NCBI RefSeq assembly: GCF_900188325.1 | Contig: NZ_FZPD01000001.1 | Location: 62,001 to 126,000, forward strand | Source of the DNA: Ekhidna lutea | Lineage (GTDB): Bacteria; Bacteroidota; Bacteroidia; Cytophagales; Cyclobacteriaceae | Length of the DNA stretch: 64,000 nucleotides | Reading direction: 5' to 3' | Part shown: positions 9,346 through 57,395 of the stretch, piece by piece | Layout of the letters: every line of letters begins with the position of its first letter | Numbering within the stretch: position 1 is the first letter of the stretch | Program-made: the position numbers and the translations under genes | Notes under the pieces: model-generated | The model's database searches: none | The model's input: only the letters and a program-made list of their open reading frames with translations | Told to the model about the DNA's origin: nothing

Positions 9346-9409
9346 ATTTTTTACCCCTGCCCTAAAGGGAGTTGTTGACTTTCCCTTCAGGGATAAAGGG
9401 TTATAAAAA
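9346..9409. repeat. G/C-stem intergenic repeat, double hairpin
   Basis: Two short stems (CCCTAAAGGG and CCCTTCAGGG) lie head to head, flanked by TTTTTACCC and GGGTTATAAAAA, so the whole unit is an imperfect inverted repeat. It belongs to the same family as the copies at 15673, 54421 and 54599. Confidence 0.6.
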
Positions 9410-15672: not shown

Positions 15673-15696
15673 TCCCCTTCAGGGGGTTGGGGGTGG
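15673..15696. repeat. G/C-stem intergenic repeat copy
   Basis: TCCCCTTCAGGGGG followed by TTGGGGGTGG is the same pattern as the copy next to polA at 54599 (stem, then a T/G-rich GGGGGTG tail). It ends 15 bp before the P3 start codon. Confidence 0.6.
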
Positions 15697-52140: not shown

Positions 52141-53027
52141 TATTTAAAGTTATTAAAAACTCTCAATTGAAGCTTCTCCGGCAAAACCTTAATCTCATAC
52201 GGAGGCTGGCCCATCCGCTCCCCGTCGATGTGAGCATAAAGCAGATTATTAGCACCTACTTTTACCGATTTTGCTTTGTAAAAATTGATTTCCTTCAGAG
52301 ACCCATGCGTTCCACCAGAGAGTTTATTGATGTTCAGAAACCTTCTCAATCCGGATACTTTTCCAATTTCACAAATTTCTAAAAGACCATCATCAACCTT
52401 TGCCTCAGGCATCAACTTGAATCCTCCACCAAAGGTGGTTCCATTACCAATGGTCAATAAGATTAAATCCTTTTGAAAAGGTCGATCATCAATTTGATAG
52501 TCGAACTTGCGTTCTCGATAGCCTCCGAGAATGCGAAGCACATGATAGTAGTAAGCAGCATGACCTGTGAGCAATGGCACTCGCTTGGAAGCCATATCTT
52601 CTACAATCTGTCCATCAAACCCTATCCCAACGCCATTGACAAACTTTCGATTATTGCACTGGCCTAAATCAATTCGCTTGATCTCACCATTTATGGCTGT
52701 ATCAATTTGCACTTCCAGTGTCTTCCCAATCGCCACATTCTTGATGAAGTCGTCCCCTGTGCCTGCAGGTAAAATGGAAACCGGAATATCATGGTTCAAT
52801 CCGTTCACCGACTCATTGATGGTCCCATCTCCTCCAATAATAATTAAGTCTGTAAACGATGCATCAAGAAATTCTGAAACGGTAGTAGTTGCGCTTTTAC
52901 TCTCGTTTGTGTCGAAGACCTGGTAATCTACTTCCTGATTGTTGAGTGTCTCAGATAACTTTTTGCAGACCCTCAATGCTTTACCTCCCGCAAAGGGATT
53001 CCAGATAACAAAAATCTTTCTGGACAT
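52140..53027 (-). CDS. Diacylglycerol kinase-family lipid kinase (YegS/BmrU-like)
   Basis: 295 residues. NPFAGGKA at the start and the nucleotide-binding IIGGDGTINESVNGL near residue 65 are typical of DAGK_cat lipid kinases. PVSILPAGTGDDFIKNVAIG and the C-terminal beta domain with YAHIDGERMG complete the fold. It phosphorylates diacylglycerol or a similar lipid at the membrane. Its start overlaps the dehydratase stop (TGATG) and its stop overlaps the DUF4160 start. Confidence 0.9.
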   Translation of the reverse strand: MSRKIFVIWNPFAGGKALRVCKKLSETLNNQEVDYQVFDTNESKSATTTVSEFLDASFTDLIIIGGDGTINESVNGLNHDIPVSILPAGTGDDFIKNVAIGKTLEVQIDTAINGEIKRIDLGQCNNRKFVNGVGIGFDGQIVEDMASKRVPLLTGHAAYYYHVLRILGGYRERKFDYQIDDRPFQKDLILLTIGNGTTFGGGFKLMPEAKVDDGLLEICEIGKVSGLRRFLNINKLSGGTHGSLKEINFYKAKSVKVGANNLLYAHIDGERMGQPPYEIKVLPEKLQLRVFNNFK

Positions 53028-53977
53028 CAGAAAGGAAGTTTTGTCAAATCGACATTTCCTCCGGTAAGAATTACCCCCACTCGTTTGTCTTTAAATGCTT
53101 CTGGATTTTTCAAAATCGCTGCAAAAGGAACAGCACATGAAGGCTCAATCACGATTTTCATTCGCTCCCAGATCAGCTTCATCGCGTCTACAATCTCTTG
53201 CTCCGAAACCGTAAAAACTTCCTTTACATGCTCCTTTAAAATGTCAAAATTCTTTTGTCCGATGGTAGTTTTCAATCCATCAGCGATCGTATCTGATGAC
53301 TTGTTTGGGATGATTTTGCCTGCTTTTAACGACTGATAGCAGTCATCCACTTCTTCTGGTTCTCCAAGATATACTTCCATATTTGGATCCAGGTAGTGAG
53401 CAATCAAAGAAGTACCCGCTGCAAGGCCACCACCGCCCACCGGAGCAATGATGCAATCCAGGTCATCCGTTTCTTCAATCAATTCTTTAGCAGCTGTAGC
53501 CTGCCCGGCTATAATGTTATAGTTATCAAACGGATGTATCAAAATGGCTCCCGTTCGGTCTACTACATCCTGACAAGCTTGTGACCTGGATTGATCGTTT
53601 GGCTCACAGAATATCACCTCCGCGTCATATCCTTTTACCGCTTCTACCTTCACTTTCGTCGCATTTTTGGGCATCACCACGAAAGCTTTTGACCCAGCCA
53701 ACTTGGCTGCAAGGGCTACTGCCTGACCGTGATTTCCGGAAGAGTGACAGGCAAAACCATTCACTCGTTCTTCCGGACGATAGCTGAAGATCGCGTTGGC
53801 TGCACCACGCATCTTGAATGCTCCCACTTTTTGAAAGTTCTCACACTTAAAATAAATGTGGCAACCGGCAATCTCATCAATGTTCTTGGATGTCATTACC
53901 GGGGTTTCAATGATGTATTGAGCTATTCGCTGATGAGCGCGTTTGATGTCGGAGAAGGAAGGAGGTGAGGTTAGCAT
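53027..53977 (-). CDS. PLP-dependent threonine/serine dehydratase
   Basis: 316 residues without the regulatory ACT domain of biosynthetic IlvA, hence the catabolic or serine racemase-like type. The PLP lysine is in KVGAFKMRGA near residue 54, the substrate loop is SSGNHGQAVALAA, and the phosphate-binding glycine loop is PVGGGGLAAG. It deaminates threonine or serine to a 2-oxo acid. It is first in a four-gene overlapping chain. Confidence 0.9.
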   Translation of the reverse strand: MLTSPPSFSDIKRAHQRIAQYIIETPVMTSKNIDEIAGCHIYFKCENFQKVGAFKMRGAANAIFSYRPEERVNGFACHSSGNHGQAVALAAKLAGSKAFVVMPKNATKVKVEAVKGYDAEVIFCEPNDQSRSQACQDVVDRTGAILIHPFDNYNIIAGQATAAKELIEETDDLDCIIAPVGGGGLAAGTSLIAHYLDPNMEVYLGEPEEVDDCYQSLKAGKIIPNKSSDTIADGLKTTIGQKNFDILKEHVKEVFTVSEQEIVDAMKLIWERMKIVIEPSCAVPFAAILKNPEAFKDKRVGVILTGGNVDLTKLPF

Positions 53978-54030: not shown

Positions 54031-54042
54031 TTCCCCCTCGAG
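54031..54042 (+). repeat. Left inverted end of the DUF559 unit
   Basis: TTCCCCCTCGAG, identical to the first 12 bases of the copy at 54599 and, with one mismatch, the reverse complement of CTCAAGGGGGAA at 54436-54447. The DUF559 start codon is 3 bp further in. Confidence 0.65.
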
Positions 54043-54044
54043 AT

Positions 54045-54431
54045 ATGAACAAATATTCTAACAACAACTACAATAAAAACCTAAAGCAGCTAGCTAGAAA
54101 GCTTAGAAAAAACCCTACGAAAGCTGAAACTGTCATGTGGCGTGAGGTGCTCGGAGAAAAGCAAATGATGGAATACCGGTTTTTGAGACAAAGGCCGATT
54201 GGTAATTACATCGTAGACTTCTTCTGTAAAGAATTGAAGCTGATTATTGAAGTGGATGGCTATACACATCAATTTGAAGAGGTGGCTGCCAAAGATCAGA
54301 CTCGAGAAAAGGAGCTAAAAGAGATGGGTTATTTCGTTCTGCGTTTTGAAGATTCTGAGGTTCTTTCAGATATTAACAATGTTGTGAGAACGATTGAGAA
54401 TTGGATTTTGGATCAAAAGGTCACCCCCTAA
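54045..54431 (+). CDS. DUF559 (VSR/PD-(D/E)XK-like) endonuclease-domain protein
   Basis: 128 residues: NKNLKQLARKLRKNPTKAETVMWREVL, then RFLRQRPIGNYIVDFFCKELKLIIEVDGYTHQ and GYFVLRFEDSEVL. The VDFF...IIEVDG segment fits the nuclease motif of DUF559, related to very-short-patch repair nucleases. Biochemical function is not established. Its start lies 3 bp inside one repeat end, and its stop codon is within another: the last residues (VTP, stop) are encoded by the CACCCCCTAA of the repeat. The gene is therefore framed by inverted repeat ends. Confidence 0.88.
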   Translation: MNKYSNNNYNKNLKQLARKLRKNPTKAETVMWREVLGEKQMMEYRFLRQRPIGNYIVDFFCKELKLIIEVDGYTHQFEEVAAKDQTREKELKEMGYFVLRFEDSEVLSDINNVVRTIENWILDQKVTP

Positions 54432-54447
54432 CCCCCTCAAGGGGGAA
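54421..54447 (+). repeat. Right inverted end of the DUF559 unit (G/C-stem repeat)
   Basis: TCACCCCCTAA followed by CCCCCTCAAGGGGGAA. It contains the DUF559 stop codon. Its outer 12 bases mirror 54031-54042, and the whole repeat mirrors 54599-54624. Confidence 0.7.
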
Positions 54448-54598
54448 CTTAGGGCTGCAAATCTTCACGTTCGACCATTCCAAGATTACGAATTTGATTT
54501 GTTTCAATAGGATTAATATGTGCAGGACAAATAACGAATCTCCAATATGGTTGGAAATAACTCTATTTAAGGAGGTCTTTCTTCCTAGGCACACCACA

Positions 54599-54624
54599 TT
54601 CCCCCTCGAGGGGCTAGGGGGTGA
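54599..54624 (+). repeat. G/C-stem repeat copy downstream of polA
   Basis: TTCCCCCTCGAGGGG then CTAGGGGGTGA, inverted relative to the copy at 54421 and ending 12 bp from the polA stop codon. The two copies enclose 151 bp in which I see no gene. Confidence 0.7.
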
Positions 54625-54635
54625 TTATACCAATT

Positions 54636-57395
54636 CTAATGCGCTTCAAGCCAATTTTGACCAATCCCGATTTCTATTTCCATTGGCACTTCCAGTGGAT
54701 GGGCGTTTTTCATGAAATCCTCCACTTTGCTTACCAATAATTCCTGCTCGTCTTTATGCATATCAAAAACCAATTCATCATGTACCTGCATGATCATTTT
54801 CGATTTCAACTTTTCTGATTGCATCCATTTGTGAATGTCAATCATGGCTATTTTGATGATGTCCGCAGCGCTACCCTGAATAGGTGCATTGATGGCATTT
54901 CGTTCATCGAATCCACGCATGGTGAAGTTTCGTGAGTTGATATTCCTCAAGTATCTTCTTCGGCCTAAAATTGTCTCGACGTATTCATCCTTTTTGGCCT
55001 GCTCAATGGTCTCATCCATGTATTTCTTCACATTCGGAAACTCCTTGAAATATGAATCGATGATTTCCTGAGCTTCTCCACGAGCAATATTCAGGTTTTG
55101 AGAAAGGCCATAAGCTGAGATACCATAGATGATTCCAAAATTGACCTCTTTTGCTTTTCGGCGCATGTTCGGCTCCACATTGTCAATGTCTACTCCAAAT
55201 ACCTTGGATGCTGTGGTTGCATGAATATCCCGGCCTTCTTTGAATGCATTCATCATGCTCTCATCCTTAGAAAAAGCGGCCATGATCCTAAGCTCAATCT
55301 GAGAGTAGTCAGCTGCCATAATCAAATGATCTCCATCACTTGGTATAAAAGCTTTTCGTATTTCACGTCCCTTTTCTGTCCGAATAGGTATGTTCTGAAG
55401 GTTGGGATTGTTTGAGCTTAATCGACCGGTCGCAGCAACCGTCTGCCGGTAGTCGGTGTGAATCCTTTCACTCGCTGGGCTTATCAGTTTTGGTAATGCA
55501 TCTACGTAAGTAGACTTTAGTTTCTGGTATTCCCGGAACTCCAAAATCTTCGCTGCGATTGCATGTTCATCTGCAAGCTTTGAAAGAATGTCCTCTCCTG
55601 TTGCGTATTGGCCTGACTTGGTCTTCTTTGGTTTTTCAACCAGCTTCAATTTATCAAAAAGGATTTCTCCAAGCTGCTTTGGTGATCCAATGTTGAAATC
55701 CACTCCGGCTATATCAAAAATTTCCTGCTGTACACGTCGGCTTTCTTCATCCAGCTCCTTCGACATTTTCTCAAGTGCCAAAGTATCCACTTTCACTCCT
55801 TCGTATTCCATATCTGCCAGTACAAAAGAGAGTGGTTCTTCTACTTCATGAAGGAGCCTTTGCAGCTTTCGCTCATCAATGTCCTTTTCAAGAAGCTCTT
55901 TTAGCTGGAGCGTGATATCTGCATCCTCACATGCATAATCCTTCACCTTCTCCGGATCAATCTGATCGATCGTCTTTTGGTTTTTTCCCTTCGGACCAAC
56001 CAGATTCTCGAACGAAATAGTTTTATAGTTCAAGAACTTGTCTGCCAGCCAATCCATGCTGTTGTTTGATTCCGGATCTAATAGAAAGTGAGCCAGCATC
56101 GTGTCGAAGATTTCTCCTTTCACATGAACGCCATAGTTACGCATCACCTGGATGTCATATTTCAGATTCTGTCCAATCTTCTGAATACTCTCATTTTCTA
56201 AGATTTCCTTAAAGGCATCTGCCACAGATTGAGCATTCGCTCCACATGGAACATACCAGGCTTCTCCTTTCTTGATGGCAAAAGCTATCCCTACAAGTTT
56301 TGCCTCCCGGGTTTCCAGACTAGTAGTTTCCGTATCAAAACAGAATGACTTTTTTGCACTAAGCTTTTTTACCAATTGTTGAATGGCTTCCTGACCTTCT
56401 ACCAATTGATAAGTGTGTTTGGTTGTTTTGATCGATTCTTTGTTGTCAGAAGCTGCCGGAGCATCTCCACCTCCATCAAACAATCCCAGCTGTTGAGTTT
56501 CTCCTTTCTTGATGTCATTCTCTTCCTGGAAAACCCTTCTGGCAATTGTCTTGAATTCCAGTTTATCAAAAATCGGTTGAAGAATATCTGGATTCGGCTC
56601 TCCGTATTGCAGGGCAGTTTGATCAAACTCAATTGGTGAATCAATCTTGATTGTGGCCAGCTCTTTTGACATGATGCCTTGCTGCCCATGCTCCTGTACG
56701 CGCTTCTGTAATGCTCCTTTTAGCTCATCCGCGTGAGCCACAATTTCTTCAACAGAACCGTATTCCTTCAAAAGTTTGGAAGCGGTTTTGTCACCAATTC
56801 CAGGGATTCCAGGGATGTTATCCACTGAATCGCCTTTAAGTCCCAGCACATCTCTTACCTGATCGACTGCATCGATATCAAATTTTTCAAGGACTTCAGG
56901 AATGCCCATGATATCCACGCCATTTCCCATTCTCCTTGGCTTGAAAAGGAAGATATTTTCATCTACCAGCTGAGCAAAATCCTTATCTGGTGTCATCATG
57001 TACACCTTAAAACCCTCTTTACTGGCTTTCTTAGCGATGGTCCCAATCAGATCGTCTGCCTCATATCCATCCTTCATGAGAATGGGTATGTTAAATCCCT
57101 CTACAATCTTGAGGCAGTATGGAATTGCTACTTTGATCTCCTCCGGTTGTTCTTGCCGAGTCGCTTTATATTCCTTATAATCTTCATGTCGAAAAGTCGG
57201 AGCATGTGTATCGAAAGCTACACCTATATGGGAGGGTTTTTCTTTGGTAATAATCTCCAGCAAGGAGTTAGTAAAACCTAAAATTGCACCTGTGTTTATG
57301 CCATTGGTGGTAAGTCTGGGATTTTGACTCATGGCGAAGTGAGCACGGTATATCAATGCAAACGCATCAAGCAGGAAGAGTTTCTTTTCGGACAT
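54636..57395 (-). CDS. polA: DNA polymerase I
   Basis: 919 residues, close to the 928 of E. coli. It acts in Okazaki fragment processing and repair. 5'-3' exonuclease at ~1-285 (KLFLLDAFALIYRAHFAM, GDSVDNIPGIPGIG). The 3'-5' exonuclease domain at ~330-520 retains the metal ligands (CFDTETTSLE, NLKYDIQVM, YACEDADIT), so proofreading is likely intact. Polymerase domain at ~530-919: motif A AADYSQIELR, motif B RRKAKEVNFGIIYGIS and motif C QVHDELVFD. Monocistronic. Confidence 0.97.
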   Translation of the reverse strand: MSEKKLFLLDAFALIYRAHFAMSQNPRLTTNGINTGAILGFTNSLLEIITKEKPSHIGVAFDTHAPTFRHEDYKEYKATRQEQPEEIKVAIPYCLKIVEGFNIPILMKDGYEADDLIGTIAKKASKEGFKVYMMTPDKDFAQLVDENIFLFKPRRMGNGVDIMGIPEVLEKFDIDAVDQVRDVLGLKGDSVDNIPGIPGIGDKTASKLLKEYGSVEEIVAHADELKGALQKRVQEHGQQGIMSKELATIKIDSPIEFDQTALQYGEPNPDILQPIFDKLEFKTIARRVFQEENDIKKGETQQLGLFDGGGDAPAASDNKESIKTTKHTYQLVEGQEAIQQLVKKLSAKKSFCFDTETTSLETREAKLVGIAFAIKKGEAWYVPCGANAQSVADAFKEILENESIQKIGQNLKYDIQVMRNYGVHVKGEIFDTMLAHFLLDPESNNSMDWLADKFLNYKTISFENLVGPKGKNQKTIDQIDPEKVKDYACEDADITLQLKELLEKDIDERKLQRLLHEVEEPLSFVLADMEYEGVKVDTLALEKMSKELDEESRRVQQEIFDIAGVDFNIGSPKQLGEILFDKLKLVEKPKKTKSGQYATGEDILSKLADEHAIAAKILEFREYQKLKSTYVDALPKLISPASERIHTDYRQTVAATGRLSSNNPNLQNIPIRTEKGREIRKAFIPSDGDHLIMAADYSQIELRIMAAFSKDESMMNAFKEGRDIHATTASKVFGVDIDNVEPNMRRKAKEVNFGIIYGISAYGLSQNLNIARGEAQEIIDSYFKEFPNVKKYMDETIEQAKKDEYVETILGRRRYLRNINSRNFTMRGFDERNAINAPIQGSAADIIKIAMIDIHKWMQSEKLKSKMIMQVHDELVFDMHKDEQELLVSKVEDFMKNAHPLEVPMEIEIGIGQNWLEAH

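Follow-up and report, generated by a model that had tools for sequence, protein, structure and literature searches.

The window, that is, the whole stretch of 64,000 nucleotides of Ekhidna lutea DNA analysed here, carries between two host genes a short open frame for a protein of the DUF559 family and three copies of a small hairpin repeat (Table 1). The gene product matches DUF559 in Pfam (E 6.8e-33) and, at E 0.001, the gene matches PF04480 and PF18741 only. A complete repeat, exemplified by TTCCCCCTTGAGGGGGTTAGGGGGTGAC, is laid out as a C-rich arm, a loop, a G-rich arm, a short linker and a G-tract tail. The initial annotation described the gene as framed by these repeats, with TTCCCCCTCGAG 3 bp before the start codon, an inverted counterpart ending 16 bp past the stop and a third copy in opposite orientation 151 bp further on. 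The latter two lie exactly so, the TAA stop (54429–54431) falling within the inverted right repeat, which ends at 54447, and the third copy starting at 54599. Repeats are present at both ends of the gene, but the left one is a half repeat and stands 2 bp, not 3 bp, before the ATG. It looks like the relic of a complete repeat, because the congener G200 has a complete copy there. The right and third repeats together form a pair whose layout is shared with dispersed doublets in other genomes.

Table 1. Features of the window discussed in the text (position 1 is its first nucleotide)
Feature	Position	Strand	Remark
Dispersed repeat TCCCCTTCAGGGGGTTGGGGGTGGAA	15673–15698	+	pattern match, G000:C10:77674
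Left neighbour, pyridoxal-type threonine/serine dehydratase	53027–53977	−	name by reading; border of the empty site
Truncated left repeat, half hairpin TTCCCCCTCGAG	54031–54042	+	apparent relic; intact copy at the corresponding place in G200
DUF559 (PF04480) nuclease gene, 128 aa, open frame	54045–54431	+	Pfam
Complete right repeat TTCCCCCTTGAGGGGGTTAGGGGGTGAC	54420–54447	−	tail toward the gene; stop codon within
Inverted pair, tail-head...head-tail, gene-less, 207 bp	54420–54626		right and third repeats; REPIN-like doublet
Third repeat TTCCCCCTCGAGGGGCTAGGGGGTGATT	54599–54626	+	tail outward
Right neighbour, polA	54636–57395	−	name by reading; border of the empty site

Further family members had been proposed at 15673 and 9346. 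The former is a member, its core being a pattern match, while at the latter none of the repeat patterns tried matches; the inverted pair found there (9348–9408, ACCCCTGCCCTAAAGGGA..TTTCCCTTCAGGGATAAAGGGT, with 3-base C/G runs) could at most be a remote or degraded relative of the repeat family, perhaps a doublet of the same kind. At up to two mismatches, the 12-mer TTCCCCCTCGAG is in no excess in the window (8 found versus 8.0 expected), and its three exact matches all lie inside 580 bp. In the whole genome, the 24-mer repeat with up to three mismatches occurs at 7 places and its backward control at none. Single-strand folding of the two complete 30-nt repeats in the window is no better than that of shuffles (z 0.05 and -0.91), and Rfam, at the gathering score, recognises no RNA family in either the window or the eight loci searched. 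The home genome (G000) has five DUF559 genes, all with a tailed C/G hairpin on at least one side within a reach of 250 bp. The repeat types beside these genes differ, namely the window type, an ATT-tailed type surrounding a DUF559 copy that carries a stop (L009), a TGAG-tailed type (L010) and a TGGG-tailed type (L011 and L012). Elsewhere in this genome, about 12 kb (G000:C6:137107-149343) hold four window-type matches with other repeat types interspersed.

The DUF559 protein is very likely a nuclease, because of its invariant residues and its solved relatives. Among 59 aligned proteins, 15 columns are invariant, including E28, D58, E69, D71, H75 and D84. The closest solved relative is 3hrl, an endonuclease-like protein (E 3.5e-30 by profile search), and the second-best is 3r3p, a 'mobile intron protein' (E 7e-4 with the single sequence, 3.1e-6 with the profile), which we take to be the homing endonuclease I-Bth0305I. 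PADLOC returns a homing endonuclease model (E 9e-7) and one weak restriction-enzyme match. Reading DUF559 as a classical transposase would go beyond what protein comparison supports. In the literature, Caulobacter VsrA, a DUF559 protein, is a predicted mismatch-repair endonuclease, of the Vsr kind that nicks the T:G mismatches a cytosine methylase leaves behind (PMC12907096), and a DUF559 gene is filed under the EDxHD homing endonucleases (PMC9403480).

The locus was compared in related genomes by excerpts that begin where the left neighbour starts and stop where the right one ends, ~20 bp of genes included. This excerpt measures 33 bp in G194, 34 bp in G197, 84 bp in G202 and 112 bp in G196, all congeners, and 51 and 52 bp in G209 and G207, which belong to two other genera. 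None of the six excerpts contains a DUF559 gene or a hairpin of that kind; the one of G196 contains a CCCCC run. The empty sister sites envisaged by the initial annotation do exist, since four of the nine congeners, sister species of E. lutea, are without gene and hairpin at the window site. G200 has the unit, its left repeat being complete (TTCCCCCTTGAGGGGGTTAGGGGGTGA) and its gene interrupted by stop codons. Most simply, the gene and the repeats arrived as one before G000 and G200 diverged and are now decaying; alternatively, the other congeners may have lost the unit. In G201 the contig ends too soon for this comparison. The same intergenic site is occupied in G195 and G199 (L194 and L198) by a different insert of ~0.6 kb, by eye a small toxin–antitoxin-like pair, and in G198 (L197) by a 7.5-kb insert whose ends resemble, by eye, a large secreted repeat protein.

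Hairpin repeats beside DUF559 genes

The association was quantified on stand-alone DUF559 genes (ORF of at most 230 aa, each side with a flank of 150 bp or more), around which a motif was sought within a reach of 150 bp, namely a perfect stem of 6 or longer, with CCCC/GGGG, and a GGGG no more than 34 bp after it. Other ORFs of the same loci, 100 aa or longer and 600 bp or more away, served as controls. The order set consists of best-scoring matches, 40 hand-picked places and a few congener loci, including broken fragments (L009 and L199), and the named set, covering many phyla, of the remainder of the 80 nearest relatives of the window protein; duplicates (L001, L049 and L146), polA-centred loci (L093–L112) and loci without a profile-fitting ORF were left out. 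In these non-random sets, which contain related strains and may overlap in genomes, a repeat occurs at 46/58 DUF559 loci of the order set (both sides at 16; controls 4/122; Fisher p 8e-27) and at 63/74 of the named set (both sides at 41; controls 10/128; Fisher p 7e-30). Altogether, repeats flank the gene on both sides at 57 of the 132 DUF559 loci and at none of the 250 controls, 14 of which have a repeat. DUF559 genes are thus enriched in adjacent repeats relative to other genes, as the initial annotation had anticipated.

At the remaining 12/58 and 11/74 loci, the scanner finds no repeat. A looser scan, reaching 260 bp from the domain and run on DUF559 loci only, detects a repeat at 145 of 158 loci, with both sides occupied at 85. 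The window's genus (g1) has 17 DUF559 matches at E <1e-20 in ten genomes; a repeat lies within 250 bp of the domain in 15 of the 16 measurable genes, one locus being too short.

The DUF559–repeat association extends beyond Bacteroidota. In a sample of 18 loci from several phyla, selected by genus (37 plasmid-collection records, those of E. coli and P. aeruginosa left out) and covering alpha-, beta- and gamma-proteobacteria, Cyanobacteria and Deinococcota, the strict scanner finds repeats at 12 loci, on both sides at 9, and inspection by eye finds them at all 18; the scanner's figure is the one relied on here. Terminal inverted repeats, a feature of insertion sequences and MITEs, are present, for example at L300 of Deinococcus psychrotolerans, where 56-nt terminal arms, 98% complementary, surround DUF559. 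The Sinorhizobium repeat, searched as a 25-mer with up to three mismatches, occupies 8 places in its record (control 0) and may resemble the rhizobial RIME element.

Two loci have neighbours worth recording. In Sinorhizobium meliloti Ak57 pSymB (L311, 568–972), a DUF559 gene flanked on either side by hairpin repeats adjoins an ISRm16 transposase gene. In a plasmid of Synechocystis sp. B12 (L299, 502–948), DUF559 overlaps an upstream hypothetical ORF and is followed by one hairpin and by a BREX pglX-annotated gene, which it may interrupt.

Dispersed copies, doublets and tail types

The distribution of the repeats was followed in 194 genomes of the order. A first exact pattern, which caught few subtypes (22/194 genomes), was dropped for a general exact pattern; this yields up to 252 matches per genome, palindromic sites possibly counting on both strands, versus 2 for the controls in all 194 genomes. 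A strong DUF559 match (E <1e-15) is found in 75 genomes; among the remaining 119, a weak match is found in 17. Counting the copies beside DUF559 as well, and with no correction for the kinship of same-genus, hence non-independent, genomes, the mean number of copies per genome is 29.0 with strong DUF559 versus 1.9 without; at least 10 copies are reached by 32/75 versus 7/119 genomes, and at least 50 by 14/75 versus 0/119. The seven repeat-rich genomes without strong DUF559 comprise five with no match and two with a weak one. The richest genome (G096, 252 copies) has a single DUF559 match, with no repeat within 150 bp. In the window's genus, counted with a slightly looser pattern and including overlapping matches, no pattern match is found in G195 (no DUF559), G201 (weak match only) and G202 (one strong match), and 4 are found in G197, which is without DUF559. 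A distinct repeat, TCCCCCTCTCCCC..AGGGGGAGAGGGGG, occurs in twelve copies in G027, a genome without DUF559 match, and may represent an unrelated family.

These figures bear on the idea that another enzyme, a RAYT/HUH or IS transposase, mobilises the repeats and that DUF559 is a passenger landing in or near them. Y1_Tnp matches occur in 140/194 genomes, and copy numbers are highest on average where both genes occur (31.7, n = 65), compared with DUF559 only (11.2, n = 10), Y1_Tnp only (2.5, n = 75) and neither (0.9, n = 44); the five repeat-rich genomes devoid of any DUF559 match point the same way. However, Y1_Tnp adds little beside DUF559 in a two-predictor model (t 1.8 versus 8.95), Y1_Tnp being the only transposase family compared, and 5 of the 10 genomes with strong DUF559 and no Y1_Tnp reach at least 10 copies. 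Moreover, such repeats lie within 250 bp at none of 28 Y1_Tnp loci (two more were too short), these being the best match per genome, among which IS200-type transposases may outnumber RAYTs. Since, in addition, the tail class of the repeats tracks the DUF559 tree (see below), a passenger role is quite improbable.

Many copies come in pairs. In lists of the first 18–20 copies from each of five genomes, 38/98 belong to doublets of less than 300 bp, and all 19 of these doublets are inverted, 16 head-to-head and 3 tail-to-tail. Five doublets of ~148 bp from G096, whose assembly is fragmented with 7% contamination, are 78% identical inside (71% for the lowest pair), two being in the other orientation, and their flanks are 42–43% identical when aligned and 27–37% in register. 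Insides are alike and flanks unrelated; a unit with definite borders has therefore been dispersed over unrelated sites. The initial annotation saw single repeats as non-autonomous copies; gene-less copies are often inverted pairs.

Repeats were assigned to classes by the bases following the G-run of the tail, namely TGTG (45), TGGG (18), TGAGG (18), TGGTT (11) and ATT (6), in 157 rows, of which 59, the window's own type included, are unlabelled. Placed on a maximum-likelihood tree of the DUF559 domain (105 columns, many weak forks), the tail classes require 13 changes, as compared with a mean of 47.9 and a minimum of 43 in shuffles. Shuffling within genera, with the 26 rows without genus pooled as one group, gives a mean of 26.6 and a minimum of 21. 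The clearest comparison comes from genus g19 alone (21 rows), where 3 changes are counted versus a shuffle mean of 8.7, none of 500 shuffles being as low. TGAGG and TGGTT types coexist in three genomes (G030, G074 and G128), each with its own nuclease clade. The pairing of tail and clade is the kind of trace that dedicated recognition would leave. As to orientation, TGGTT tails face the gene and TGAGG tails mostly point outward in genus g19, and TGGTT tails point outward at L042 in another genus. At several loci (L158, L162, L185, L166, L057, L090 and others), a second small hairpin replaces the linker of 2–5 nt (TGGACGCGGAGCGGAC and TGCCCGCAGGGC); its place between stem and tail suggests spatially joint recognition of stem and G-tail.

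DUF559 units inside host genes

DUF559 matches located in long frames were at first candidates for helicase-type fusions, a reading rejected in favour of in-frame insertions, since 13 of the 15 measurable loci bear repeats within 250 bp, 9 of them on both sides. As named by reading, the host genes are leuS (two sites), metH, ileS, purL (at its end) and a gene for N-formylglutamate amidohydrolase. One leuS loop, inspected by eye in 28 genes from 30 chosen genomes picked partly for DUF559, so that the counts are not frequencies, is empty in 14 genes, holds repeats only in 5 and a repeat–DUF559–repeat unit in 8, with 1 unclear. The leuS unit of G025 is bounded by TACCTCACCCCC and GGGGGGTGAGGTA, and the loop is empty in the congener G083; by eye, comparison of the two reveals no target-site duplication in this variable loop.

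These insertions weigh on the main rival explanation, according to which DUF559 is a homing endonuclease that cuts empty sites, the gene being copied in by double-strand-break repair, and the hairpins are mere boundary sequence or by-products of recombination. The kinship with 3r3p, the PADLOC model, the filing of a DUF559 gene under EDxHD enzymes and the occupation of the same leuS loop in several families are all in its favour. Homing, however, targets one site, whereas DUF559 units reside in many unrelated places (intergenic, two in leuS, and in metH, ileS and purL); it also leaves unexplained the up to 252 pattern matches per genome and the paired units with unrelated flanks. The similarity to I-Bth0305I concerns the homologous nuclease domain; that enzyme has several domains, belongs to a group I intron and has a very long target (PMC3943268), whereas the DUF559 proteins studied here consist of the bare domain and their genes have hairpin repeats at the ends. 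Neither intron residence, as judged by Rfam in the window, nor one conserved target is found. Altogether, homing is an unlikely account of the data.

Still less probable, to the point of being hardly tenable, is a domesticated Vsr-like repair or defence nuclease kept for the host, with hairpins as terminators or recombination scars. Such a function would accord with the prediction made for Caulobacter VsrA and with the weak restriction-enzyme match in PADLOC. Against it, repeats lie upstream as well as downstream of the gene and within translated frames, the gene is patchily present among congeners with some copies broken, and tails match nuclease clades.

A candidate mobile element and its relation to known systems

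Taken as a whole, the data make it probable that the DUF559 gene and its flanking hairpin repeats constitute one selfish element, with DUF559 as the dedicated mobilising nuclease. The RAYT-like role initially suggested for DUF559 gains support from the enrichment of repeats beside it, the co-occurrence over 194 genomes, the unit-free sister sites and the tracking of nuclease clades by tails. That DUF559 itself is the mobiliser is what we infer from sequence comparison, as is every chemical step of the following scheme. DUF559, a nuclease of the Vsr/EDxHD type within the PD-(D/E)XK superfamily, would recognise its own repeat, including the clade-specific end of the tail (for example TGTG, TGAGG, TGGTT or ATT), and would cut or nick there, perhaps on a single-strand hairpin formed during replication. 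Repair or replication by the host would then copy or move the repeat-bounded DNA to new places, between genes and, if in frame, inside genes. The full unit would be repeat–DUF559–repeat, the gene-less inverted pairs would be non-autonomous REPIN-like derivatives and single repeats would be relics of full units or of inverted pairs. Copies would decay after insertion, as suggested by the half left repeat in the window and the stops in the gene of G200.

The closest parallel is the REP/REPIN system with its RAYT (TnpA-REP) enzymes. In both cases, a nuclease gene is flanked by short hairpin repeats, inverted doublets are dispersed, the repeat type goes with the enzyme type and several types coexist in a genome (PMC3116915 and PMC6006769 for RAYT/REPIN). 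Two of these features have been quantified here, since the dispersed repeats form inverted doublets (19/19 of those listed) and covary with the enzyme (13 changes versus 47.9 when shuffled). However, the enzyme there is an HUH tyrosine transposase (Y1_Tnp, PF01797) and the repeat bears a GTAG tag, whereas here the enzyme is a DUF559 nuclease and the repeat has a G-tract tail without GTAG; by reading, GTAG is absent from the stem base of the window repeats TTCCCCCTYRAGGGG..TAGGGGGTGA. The DUF559 element would work like RAYT/REPIN but departs from it in these two defining features.

With MITEs and bacterial IS elements, the unit shares terminal inverted repeats and short non-autonomous forms; it differs in that its sole gene is not that of a known transposase. 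No target-site duplication is visible by eye in the variable leuS loop. Rickettsia palindromic elements (RPEs) insert in frame into host genes, and no RPE that carries a gene is known to us; the DUF559 unit, by contrast, lies in frame within leuS and other genes together with its gene. Common to both are palindromic repeats inside protein-coding genes; RPEs are named in PMC3733652.

In open PMC full text, DUF559 is mentioned in 14 papers, two of which also mention palindromes and by title treat CRISPR and secretion, and NAD metabolism; COG2852 is mentioned in four. None of these papers connects the family with REP-like repeats in its title or at the start of its abstract. To our knowledge, no described element uses a lone nuclease of the DUF559 family with REP-like repeats of its own. 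Short palindromic repeats are common among bacteria, and DUF559 genes lying inside their own matching repeats provide a testable candidate mobiliser for those of this kind and point to an overlooked class of mobile elements using no known transposase. If this is true, the DUF559 elements would have converged with RAYTs on the basis of an unrelated nuclease, and unusual translated inserts in enzymes such as leucyl-tRNA synthetase would be accounted for. A broader view, towards which we lean slightly, is that these are bacteria-wide transposable elements that encode a single protein, a Vsr-like nuclease with no relation to RAYTs. They would have generated REPIN-like families in Bacteroidota, Cyanobacteria, Deinococcota and Proteobacteria, including untagged REP-like ones, and would enter essential genes such as leuS as translated, non-spliced and tolerated inserts.

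According to a survey of 2013 (PMC3733652), one of the two REP superfamilies, the CGTC-tagged one, apparently has no dedicated transposase and further REP-like families are untagged; these share with the repeats studied here their palindromic nature, their frequent dimers and the presence of some inside genes. In the loci analysed, no CGTC-ATTCCCG motif is adjacent to DUF559, the nearest being at 348 bp (L186) and 500 bp (L086); therefore, only the untagged kind is a candidate. CGTC-type motifs give 13 matches over all loci, 11 of which are in loci with a DUF559 ORF. Opposed pairs of the CGTCATTCCCG type, located ~350 and ~500 bp from DUF559 in a Nitrospira japonica MAG (L186, 2526–2634) and in G119 (L086, 4831–4907), respectively, are possibly there by chance.
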